Below are positions 26,714 through 28,998 of a stretch of 64,000 bases of DNA, in pieces. Position numbers and translations under genes: made by a program. The notes below the pieces were generated by a model, which was not told where the DNA came from, did not search any database, and worked only from the letters and a program-made list of their open reading frames with translations. This stretch comes from Paracoccus sp. IB05 (GTDB lineage: Bacteria; Pseudomonadota; Alphaproteobacteria; Rhodobacterales; Rhodobacteraceae): positions 22,273 through 86,272 of the forward strand of contig NZ_JAEFCF010000023.1 of NCBI RefSeq assembly GCF_016405985.1. Direction: 5' to 3'. Positions within the stretch are counted from its first letter, which is position 1, and every line of letters begins with the position of its first letter.

Positions 26714-27832
26714 TCAGGCCGAGAGGAACTTGTCCTGGTATTCGTTGCGCAGGGCAACGAACCAGTTTTCCTGCACCGGCCACCACCACAGCTTCTCCAG
26801 CGCATCGCCCGGATAGGCGCCGGTGAAGAAGGTGCGCGAGGCTTCCGACAGATGCGCCTCGGCGCCGACGGCGGTCGAGTTGATCGAGGTGTGATTGGCG
26901 TAAAGCGCGCCGGCCTCGGGCGACAGCATGAAGTTCAGGAAGGCATAGGCCTGATCGACATTCTGCGCGCCGGTCGGGATCGAGATCCCTTCCATCCAGG
27001 CAAGGGCACCTTCTTTCGGGGCAATGAAGCCAACCGGGAGGCCTTCTTTCGCAAGGGTCGCAGCCGAGCTGTCCCAGGTCTGGCCGATCTTGGCGCCATT
27101 GGTGCGGAAGGCGCCCTGGGCCTCATTCTCATTCGACCAGAACTGGATGATATTTCCCTTGCGGGCAATCGCTTCGGCCAGCACGACGTCGTAATTGGCC
27201 TTCATGATGGCTTCGTCTTTGAAGCTGTCGAGGAAGGGATGCGGCAGTTTGCCTTCCGATTCCATCCACAGCGCCAGGCCGACGAGGCCGGAATGGCCGC
27301 GTACGGTGGCCTTGCCAGCCGATTCCGGTTTCCAGATGTCGCCGTAAGAGGCGGTGCCATATTCCAGCGGGTTATCGTTCCTGTCGAAGGCCAGCGCCTC
27401 GGTGCCCCAGTCGGTCGGAACCTGGTAGCGCTTGCCGTCAACCACGGCGCCCAGCACTTCCGAGGATTTCGCAGCCGAGGGCAGGCACTTGTCCCATTCG
27501 ACCTTCGAATCGTCGATTTCTTTCAGGAGGCCGAATTCAACATAGTTCGGCACGCGGTCGACCGCCGGCCAGATGATGTCATAGCCGGTGCCATTCGAGG
27601 CGCGCATCTGGTTCAGCAATTCGTCATTGGTGCCATAGGGCGTGTAGGTCGGCTTGATGCCGGTGGCCTTTTCAAAAGCGGCCAGCAGGTCGTCGGAAAT
27701 ATAGCCGGCCCAGGCAAAGATATTGACCGAGCCCGACGAGCCCTGCGCCAGCGCCCCACGCGACACGAGGGGGGCGGCGAGCGAGGCGACAGCAGCGCCC
27801 CGGACAAATGAACGGCGGTTGATGAGGGTCAC
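26714..27832 (-). CDS. periplasmic polyamine-type substrate-binding protein (PotD/PotF-like)
   Basis: A 372-residue type II periplasmic-binding protein. The N terminus NRRSFVRGAAVASLAAPLV is a twin-arginine (Tat) signal, so the protein is probably exported folded. The mature part starts VNIFAWAGYISDDLL, as in spermidine/putrescine receptors, and contains WGTEALAF and FLNFMLSPEAG. The start is GTG at 27832 behind GGAG about ten bases away. It is the first gene of the importer operon; its promoter must lie in the 27.8-28.1 kb spacer. Confidence 0.9.
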   Translation of the reverse strand: MTLINRRSFVRGAAVASLAAPLVSRGALAQGSSGSVNIFAWAGYISDDLLAAFEKATGIKPTYTPYGTNDELLNQMRASNGTGYDIIWPAVDRVPNYVEFGLLKEIDDSKVEWDKCLPSAAKSSEVLGAVVDGKRYQVPTDWGTEALAFDRNDNPLEYGTASYGDIWKPESAGKATVRGHSGLVGLALWMESEGKLPHPFLDSFKDEAIMKANYDVVLAEAIARKGNIIQFWSNENEAQGAFRTNGAKIGQTWDSSAATLAKEGLPVGFIAPKEGALAWMEGISIPTGAQNVDQAYAFLNFMLSPEAGALYANHTSINSTAVGAEAHLSEASRTFFTGAYPGDALEKLWWWPVQENWFVALRNEYQDKFLSA

Positions 27833-28110
27833 TGTTATGATCTCCGCTTGACCTGTCCTGGCCGGGATTGGCCGGGGCAGGATTGAATGTCTGACGCCGC
27901 CTGCCTAGAGCCGGTATGTATCGGGGACATAACCACGATGTAACGGAGGTGTAACAGGTTTTGTCTGGCTCACCTTAACCGGTGCTTCTTGGTCTGCCTA
28001 GCTGTCAGGCCCAGGTTCTTCGGAGGGGTGCCAGTATCGGGGCAGGGCCGCGGTGCCGGCCCGATTTTACAGATTTCCGAGTGTTTCACTTTACGGGTAA
28101 AGCCTCACTA
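27833..28110. other. gene-free spacer upstream of the importer operon
   Basis: No coding region was found. It should contain the minus-strand promoter of the binding-protein gene. A short GC-rich imperfect palindrome (CTGGCCGG...CCGGGGCAG) lies near 27,858-27,880. Nothing else specific was recognised. Confidence 0.5.
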
Positions 28111-28126
28111 AAATAGTCAACTATTT
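28111..28126. promoter_or_regulatory. operator-like palindrome
   Basis: AAATAGT-CA-ACTATTT is a perfect 7-bp inverted repeat with a 2-base centre. It is AT-rich in a GC-rich genome and ends 18 bp upstream of the -35 box of the adjacent plus-strand promoter, a position suited to an activator or repressor. Confidence 0.55.
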
Positions 28127-28144
28127 GAATCCATTTGCTTTTTC

Positions 28145-28173
28145 TTGACGGATGCGATTTTCCGGTTTAGAAC
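28145..28173 (+). promoter_or_regulatory. sigma-70-type promoter for a non-coding transcript
   Basis: TTGACG (28145-28150) and TAGAAC (28168-28173) are separated by exactly 17 bp. This is the best consensus-like promoter I noticed in the window, and transcription would start near 28,180. No protein gene lies downstream on this strand before the terminator at 28,497. Confidence 0.7.
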
Positions 28174-28179
28174 GATTCT

Positions 28180-28525
28180 CAACGACAGCAAGCCAGCCGT
28201 TAGCCAAAGCGCCAGGGTCAGCCAGCTCTCGACAGAATTCCCGCCAGCAAGATGACGGCAGCGCGCCCGGCAGCCCAAAGCCACCCAGGCCAGCCCCCAG
28301 GATCATCCAGCCAGTCGGACCGACAGGACTCCTCGCCTCCCTGCACGCGAAAGACCGCCTCTGGCGGTCCGGCCAGCCAGGCAGCCAACCATCCCGCAAG
28401 CTTCGCAGCAGGCAGCCAGTCGCCACCCGCAGCGCGAAGCCAGAGCCAGACAGTCCCGGATCTCCAATGATCCAGAGTCCGCATATCACAATGCAGAAGG
28501 GCAGCCGTTCAGGGGCTGCCCTTTG
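28180..28525 (+). ncRNA. candidate small RNA, about 345 nt, family unknown
   Basis: This segment is bounded by a well-formed promoter on the left and an intrinsic terminator on the right, with no plausible protein gene between. Its sequence is strongly strand-asymmetric, rich in C and A, with the motif CAGCCAG occurring about five times and related CCAGCC/GCCAGC words many more. One strong internal hairpin is visible (GACCGCC-TCT-GGCGGTC, 28353-28369) and a CCTC-rich stretch near 28,330-28,341 could pair with Shine-Dalgarno sequences. It does not show the conserved cores of RNase P RNA, tmRNA, SRP RNA or 6S RNA. Frames on both strands give low-complexity products and are not supported. Confidence 0.55.
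28497..28523 (+). terminator. intrinsic terminator of the candidate RNA
   Basis: AAGGGCAGCC (28497-28506) and GGCTGCCCTT (28514-28523) form a perfect 10-bp stem with a 7-base loop. On the plus strand it is followed by T-GTCATTT. The minus side, beyond the antiporter operon, lacks a T-run, so the plus-strand reading is preferred, although it may act for both. Confidence 0.7.
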
Positions 28526-28566
28526 TCATTTCCGGCGGATGTGAGCTGCAGCCACAGTCCTCGGCC

Positions 28567-28998
28567 TCAGTCTTCGCCCGGCGCATCCGCAGGATCGGCA
28601 AAGGCGGCTTCTCCCTCGGGCGGCGAGACCGGCCCGATCGGCACATCCGAGCGCGCGACGGCCCCGGGGATGCCGGGAGTTCCCTCGATCCGGTCGCGGT
28701 GCAGCGCGGCACGGCCAAGGAACATCATCGTCACCGGCGTGGTGATCATCAGGAAAATTCCGATCACCAGCTCGTGCAGGACCGCGCGGCCCTCGGTCCA
28801 GCTGACGAGGATCATCGAGGCGAGCAGGATCCCCGCCGCCCCCCAGGAGGTGCCGAGCGTCGGGGCGTGCAGCCGGTCGTAAAAGCTGTGCAGCCGCGCA
28901 AGGCCGACGGTTCCCAAAAGCGTCAGCGTGGCGCCAAGCACCAGGAAGAAGGCCACCGGCAGCGCGATCCAGGCAGGAAGCGTCTCGAGATAGGTCAT
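28567..28998 (-). CDS. mnhG: monovalent cation/H+ antiporter subunit G
   Basis: A 143-residue subunit of the multisubunit Mrp/Mnh Na+(K+)/H+ antiporter. Three hydrophobic segments and the family block [18 protein letters not shown] are present; the last ~40 residues are an acidic tail rich in Glu, Asp and Pro. It is the last gene of the operon and overlaps mnhF by four bases. Confidence 0.92.

Follow-up and report, generated by a model that had tools for sequence, protein, structure and literature searches.

A 64,000-nucleotide stretch of the genome of Paracoccus sp. IB05 (the window) contains, at positions 28111 to 28527, a unit in which an inverted repeat and then a promoter are followed by 347 nt of protein-free sequence and a hairpin of the terminator type. 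By its nearest named relatives, the genome falls in the Pseudogemmobacter group. The unit is very likely a genuine conserved element, and it is predicted to encode a noncoding RNA of about 345 nt. The first-pass annotation of this DNA had described a self-contained, protein-free unit and a similar RNA, and the conservation of the promoter block, the 5' end, the boxes, and the hairpin upholds that description. We extend it with repeated GCCAG boxes in the predicted RNA and with a family of related elements in other genera. As a tentative explanation, we propose that the RNA may work as an iron-controlled decoy, titrating a factor that also binds mRNA leaders with GCCAG boxes.

Layout of the unit and its conservation in the genus

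The palindrome, promoter, and terminator all lie where they had first been placed. The inverted repeat, AAATAGT-CA-ACTATTT (28111 to 28126), is conserved in relatives; it had been called a perfect palindrome, which is true of its arms but not of the central CA. Its right part continues into TCAA-N4-TTGA (28117 to 28128; TCAACTATTTGA), which is the most conserved upstream element: TCAA is identical in all 25 members of the family that were aligned, all of which were found using models that include this element. The promoter, on the plus strand, consists of TTGACG (28145 to 28150), a 17-nt spacer, and TAGAAC (28168 to 28173). From the location of the -10 element, we infer that the RNA would start near 28181 and extend to 28527 on the plus strand. 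Alternatively, the transcript may start at a second plus-strand promoter candidate just upstream, TTCACT-18-TAAAAT (28085 to 28114). This candidate came from a consensus scan, which returned 2 sites in 4 kb versus 0.7 expected and which missed TTGACG-17-TAGAAC because TAGAAC lacks the final T.

The predicted RNA ends in an intrinsic-terminator-type hairpin (28496 to 28524, plus strand) with an 11-bp stem and a 7-nt loop. The 41-nt terminator piece has a fold energy of -24 kcal/mol (z = -5.3), and a similar hairpin is present in six of the seven members in the genus, counting the window's own. In G008, whose sequence matches Pseudogemmobacter faecipullorum, a different hairpin is visible by eye and is absent from the scan output. 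A terminator scan found only a shorter version of the hairpin and gave 4 sites versus 3.4 expected, so the scan alone proves nothing. With its modest U-tail and near symmetry, the hairpin may serve as the terminator of the convergent mnh operon as well.

No protein gene had been seen in the unit, and we agree. The window has open frames of 130 amino acids on the plus strand and 122 amino acids on the minus strand, which speaks for an mRNA for an unrecognized small protein, but neither has a match in NCBIfam or Pfam, and frames are not kept in relatives: in G012 and G007, a 72-amino-acid plus-strand frame is cut short by a stop after codon 16. We therefore rejected a protein on either strand, and an mRNA for a small protein is extremely improbable. 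The RNA also seems to be undescribed, as had been proposed. With Rfam 15, there were no matches in the window at the gathering cutoff, and the best subthreshold match around the unit had E ≥ 1.5; across 20 loci of the family, Rfam gave two tRNAs and nothing else. Searching a plasmid collection with the window DNA gave no match. We found no account of such an RNA in the published literature, where the comparison with the 167 small RNAs of P. denitrificans (PMC5107571) covered a table of 16 rows.

In a DNA search, the region was present in 6 of 13 genus genomes, including its own. The pattern TAGTCAACTA followed by TTGAC occurs once each in 7 of the 13, while a reversed control pattern had 1 match in the same 13 genomes. 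This conservation supports the promoter. The pattern is absent from the remaining six genus genomes; inspection of the mnhG neighborhoods of G001, G006, G009, and G011 showed no such unit, and G011 has one weak match to the second of the models described below. In G001, the sequence 3' of mnhG (L038) resembles, by eye, what we take to be the motif of a cobalamin riboswitch.

The neighbors are, as first annotated, genes of a polyamine-type importer and of an Mrp-type cation/H+ antiporter operon. A divergent gene for a PotD/PotF-like substrate-binding protein (26714 to 27832, minus strand) was assigned at the family level only, as its profile match is below the curated cutoffs; the convergent gene (28567 to 28998, minus strand), which closes the antiporter operon, matches the profile for antiporter subunit G (MnhG/PhaG). 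Synteny is partial: the unit adjoins mnhG in all seven members in the genus, but in other genera the neighborhoods differ. The first-pass annotation placed a regulated RNA beside these operons. However, the importer and antiporter setting was seen in this genus only, and the loci that we read in other genera lie elsewhere, so the position does not make the RNA a regulator of polyamines or Na+.

How well the RNA is conserved relative to its surroundings depends on the comparison. Compared to G003 (83% identical), the 5' part of the RNA is 87.5% identical, the hairpin is 94% identical, and the middle is 79% identical with 19 gap columns. The RNA is thus better conserved than third codon positions, which are 65% identical in mnhG and 74% in the binding-protein gene, and than the intergenic DNA on its flanks (53% and 65%). 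For the two closest relatives, the contrast between the RNA and its surroundings is small and mixed and is not clearly in the RNA's favor; there, the coding neighbors are better conserved than the upstream block.

A family with a stand-alone form and a coding form

We searched 394 genomes from the wider bacterial family, nearly all of them one genome per genus. A 193-position model, R1, which was built from the seven genus sequences only and run with strict filters that lose weak matches, matched 33 of the 394 genomes at E ≤ 0.01, including its own; the best match outside the genus had E = 2e-14. Of 29 non-self R1 loci that we examined, 22 carry the upstream block; no block was found at L132, L133, L134, L136, L139, L140, and L141 (by pattern search only, except for L132). 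A second model, built from 25 promoters, matched 53 of the 394 genomes, and only 26 of these, the window's own included, were strong matches (E ≤ 1e-7). Three R1 loci (L137, L138, and L142) are the same as the second-model loci L167, L168, and L166. We read eleven further second-model loci, including the weak matches L169 to L172, and eight look genuine (L162 to L168 and L170). At L169 and L171, a stretch resembles the block but GCCAG is missing, and L172 has neither. An exact-pattern search of 295 genomes of the wider family gave 5 matches besides the window's own, none like the unit, and the controls gave similar or larger numbers.

Two features are common to members of the family: upstream, a block centered on TCAACTATTTGA with TTGAC after it, and downstream, a transcript region that is poor in U, rich in GCCAG, and nearly free of CTGGC. 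The window has both features: its block fits the pattern TCAA[C/G]TA..TG and has a -35 element of the TTGAC type, and downstream of it GCCAG is in excess and CTGGC is nearly absent. For the iron box and for GCCAG, we counted 36 members, of which 26 are stand-alone and 10 are coding forms; for the upstream box, we added four named plasmid loci, for a total of 40. L135 (G243:C30) is a genuine-looking stand-alone copy that would be a 37th element outside the counted set, and G243 probably has two copies. Among the counted members, the stand-alone form is spread over about 20 genera, and a simple scan reported a terminator in 14 of the 26. For the other stand-alone members, we used 350 nt as the length of the RNA, except for G243, where 196 nt remain before the end of the contig. 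The neighbors outside of the genus include rpoH (L118; at L116, L126, and L131 there is a protein whose start is the same), a lolA-like gene (L120, and L114 by likeness), and genes that appear globin-like by eye (L122 and L130).

At the ten coding loci, the same block, usually with a short GCCAG leader, precedes a protein of 58 to 65 amino acids with four cysteines, all of which are invariant in an alignment of 15 sequences. When two or three of these sequences were compared to Pfam and NCBIfam, no family had a meaningful score, and a profile of the small protein found no relative among solved structures (best E = 0.69). A profile search found the protein in 13 of the 394 genomes and in 1 of the 13 genus genomes. 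The block is present at 10 of these 14 loci, in 8 cases together with the GCCAG leader; the block occurs without GCCAG in G178 and G070, and there is no block in G391, G309, G061, or G095. A plasmid-borne example is PDEN_RS23835, a four-cysteine hypothetical protein on plasmid 1 of P. denitrificans PD1222 (L191:1501-1698), whose leader has six GCCAG boxes. There are five boxes in the leader in P. yeei and four in P. alcaliphilus. Homologs are found on plasmids of Paracoccus, Thioclava, Methylobacterium, and Neorhizobium; the Thioclava locus has the block without GCCAG, and the Neorhizobium gene has neither, with an Irr-type box (see below) that matches at 12 of 14 positions. We considered whether the small protein might be the general partner of the RNA, but it is encoded in just those 13 and 1 genomes, which rules this out. 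In particular, the profile search did not detect it in the window's own genome, so it cannot be the partner there.

Both forms occur together in G114 and G005; the second place in G114 was read as L173, on a contig that the second-model search had pointed out. One form might have arisen from the other by the loss or gain of a reading frame. The stand-alone form could then be what remains of a small-protein gene after decay, with promoter and leader intact and a transcript without function, which would account for the shared promoter block and for the finding of both forms together in only two genomes. We think that such a relic is improbable: stand-alone copies turn up again and again, in about 20 genera, most stand-alone forms have more boxes rather than fewer, and the GCCAG columns and the hairpin are kept better than the remainder.

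GCCAG boxes in the predicted RNA

The eleven GCCAG boxes in the window (28192 to 28449, plus strand) start at 28192, 28211, 28221, 28243, 28289, 28310, 28372, 28376, 28415, 28439, and 28445. Shuffled sequences have an average of 2.9, and none of 200 shuffles reached 11. CTGGC occurs just once in the predicted RNA, which has 11% U. Elsewhere in the window, no stretch of the same size has as many as 9 copies of GCCAG on either strand. Across all members, the boxes are mostly preceded by A or C and followed by C.

The boxes are also conserved. In each of six comparisons within the genus alignment, GCCAG columns were kept better than the remainder; for example, 50 of 54 GCCAG columns versus 204 of 262 other RNA columns were kept in G003 (P = 0.013), and 39 of 54 versus 145 of 262 were kept in G005 (P = 0.023). 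Members have up to 19 boxes. Eight or more GCCAG and no more than 1 CTGGC within 350 nt are found in 17 of the 26 stand-alone members, as compared to 0 of 203 control windows drawn from the same loci, where the maximum was 6 GCCAG. More than 230 nt after TCAA, which is outside of the region covered by either search model, 14 stand-alone members from other genera together have 37 GCCAG and 0 CTGGC. Some members have few boxes (1 in G124, 3 in G120, and 3 in G311), and in the eight members that were found by the second model only, the excess beyond 175 nt comes mainly from G243 and G106. In G243, 11-bp tandem GCCAG units (CTCTCTGCCAG) at the start of a contig (L164/L174; G243:C32) run into the contig end, which cuts off the full length of the array. 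Short tandem repeats with GGCCAGTCTT are present just 5' of the start codon in the iscR leaders of G007 (L096) and G005 (L087).

The bias of GCCAG to one strand favors action as RNA over action as DNA. Oriented and repeated boxes, in one case in tandem, might be expected if a protein that binds or recombines DNA used them as sites behind a promoter, but in the members that we read, the boxes start directly after the conserved promoter, and the leaders of the coding gene carry them as well. We consider DNA sites to be very unlikely.

We rejected a conserved global fold for the RNA. Its predicted fold energy is only mildly better than that of shuffled sequences (z = -1.9), and RNAalifold with seven sequences gave -35.3 kcal/mol, where covariation contributed a term of +0.74. 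Two-sided changes were seen in 6 of 43 pairs: one is in the terminator, and the other five are in a small internal hairpin and its surrounding stem. The tip of this hairpin is GACCGCC-TCT-GGCGGTC (28353 to 28369, plus strand), and the changes give it weak support as a predicted structure.

An RNA with an oriented, repeated word and no conserved global fold, and with mRNA leaders that share its promoter block, led us to propose a decoy. In relatives' genomes, the stand-alone RNA and the mRNA leaders have the GCCAG motif in common. Decoy RNAs of the CsrB/RsmZ and CrcZ types likewise carry many copies of one short motif that is also found in mRNA leaders. The predicted RNA resembles them in standing alone, in its many copies, and, in relatives, in the sharing of the motif with leaders; it differs in that its motif is GCCAG, while theirs are GGA or A-rich, and in that the stand-alone RNA and the leader-bearing mRNA use one promoter block.

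The first-pass annotation proposed a trans-acting small RNA, and base pairing is the main rival to the decoy. GCCAGC boxes would be seeds for GCUGGC in many mRNAs, which would be repressed or stabilized. In favor of pairing, although it would suit a decoy as well, structure prediction leaves the boxes more open than other words (GCCAG is unpaired with a predicted probability of 0.42, versus 0.35 for 5-mers of equal GC number), and targets would be plentiful, as the window has 185 plus-strand copies of CTGGC. But a single short and common complement, repeated up to 19 times, would give little target specificity, and mRNA leaders with the same boxes would compete with the RNA instead of pairing with it. 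Overall, a design of one repeated motif suits a decoy no less than it suits a base-pairing RNA, and we view base pairing as rather unlikely.

The upstream block, iron, and the proposed decoy

The -10 element is overlapped by a putative Irr/ICE-type box, TTTAGAACGATTCTCAA (28166 to 28182), which matches TTTAGAA-N3-TTCTAAA at 13 of 14 positions, a score reached in flanking DNA at a rate of 1e-5. We took this form of the box from iscR promoters and from the general form of such boxes, rather than from published consensus letters. In five genus genomes, the full box lies at the -10 element of the iscR promoter, in the same arrangement by eye. An ICE-type box at the promoter, as in Irr-regulated genes, makes the earlier idea of a regulated RNA plausible. 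Irr has generally been reported to repress under iron scarcity.

Across the family, 10 of 36 members have a box with at least 11 of 14 matches near the promoter, as compared to about 0.1 expected from the background rate. By lineage, these ten count as six, since five of them are one lineage. The box is not always at the -10 element: it is upstream of the -35 element in G311 and in the promoter spacer in G354. Two of the seven genus members, G004 and G008, do not have it. The upstream block is more general than the iron box.

In most other members, the block includes an upstream box of the form [T/C]GA-N9-TCA, which corresponds to NNN-N9-TCA in the window (28105 to 28119, plus strand): 29 of 40 members have the [T/C]GA left half, versus a background of 6% for GA. 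The left half fails in all seven stand-alone genus members, and the window reads TCA-N9-TCA, with a degenerate left half. A second word, C[CT]GA[GC] (TTCCGAGTGTTT in the window), lies within 28060 to 28105, with a spacing of about 27 bp to the downstream copy that is closest to TCAA; such words are at -13 in 17 of 40 members and at -40 or -39 in 19 of 40. A match to a second box near -40 is weak, with 5 of 6 positions reached in 15 of 40 members and in 58 of 240 control windows, and the phasing of the words is the stronger sign.

Which regulator might bind the block? In Brucella, NtrX is said to recognize CAA-N3-5-TTG, which would fit TCAACTATTTGA. By eye, the block does not fit the VtlR box, GCAT-N3-TG-N3-T (PMC7486931), or the NtrX box, CA-N10-GC (PMC9409073), in the forms given in the cited parts of these papers. 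The window does not have the RirA operator TGA-N9-TCA as it is written in the cited part of PMC8822346; the Iron-Rhodo-box of R. sphaeroides is described in a passage of PMC4618611 as resembling the RirA box. As for Irr in R. sphaeroides, the cited section of PMC3413700 reports weak binding to the boxes of mbfA and ccpA and that Irr is not a major iron regulator. In those promoters, as in the unit, an Irr-type box is at the promoter, and the 5' end of mbfA is within the box; however, mbfA and ccpA are protein genes, and the box in the unit is putative. IscR, Irr, and OxyR are all described as binding isc-suf promoters in the excerpt of PMC6956336 that we cite.

All 7 RNA-bearing genomes have, 5' of a gene that resembles siderophore esterases, a sequence nearly identical to the inverted repeat (ATTGTCAACTAATT, contained in TTGAGAGGGATTGTCAA) (L058 to L064, including L061 at G000:C56:26380); the esterase domain was shown for G000 only. 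In G000 and G007, the near-copy adjoins siderophore-type NRPS and ABC transporter genes. One further near-match each was found in G003 and G011, and a reversed-pattern control had 5 matches in 13 genomes. We considered whether the repeat might be a private operator shared with the siderophore cluster, but the seven esterase sites are orthologous and therefore represent one event, which is weak support.

Small RNAs tied to iron status are known from other bacteria. RNAs of the RyhB type base pair with the mRNAs of iron-using proteins. RusT from Caulobacter is an Hfq-dependent, base-pairing RNA whose promoter is bound by NtrX, according to the cited part of PMC11005374. The link to iron is what the unit would share with these RNAs; it is set apart from RusT, by description rather than by sequence comparison, by its Irr-type box and its motif array. 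Similarly by description, UpsM and Pos19, the latter a small coding RNA, are small RNAs of Rhodobacter and hence from the same family (cited parts of PMC5089854 and PMC5036791). We know of no promoter block or GCCAG array that UpsM or Pos19 has in common with the unit.

Under the decoy proposal, the unit would be transcribed from about 28181 into the RNA of about 345 nt. Iron status would set its level: if Irr represses the promoter at low iron, then there would be more RNA when iron is ample. The GCCAG boxes would bind a protein or RNA factor, and the RNA would titrate this factor away from mRNA leaders with the same boxes. A more specific version, which we offer as doubtful but consistent with the two forms, is that a single promoter linked to iron gives rise either to an mRNA with a GCCAG leader, for a predicted metal-binding four-cysteine microprotein, or to a protein-free array RNA, and that both might compete for one GCCAG-binding regulator, much as in CsrA and CsrB. 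To our knowledge, no CsrA/CsrB-like circuit has been described in the Rhodobacterales lineage.

If the proposal is correct, then the Rhodobacterales would have a posttranscriptional regulator that recognizes GCCAG, and the array RNA would be a ready bait for finding it. Because the coding form is present in P. denitrificans PD1222, a tractable model, the idea is directly testable. With coding and noncoding forms behind one promoter block, the family may also be a natural case of the conversion of an mRNA to a regulatory RNA, or the reverse.
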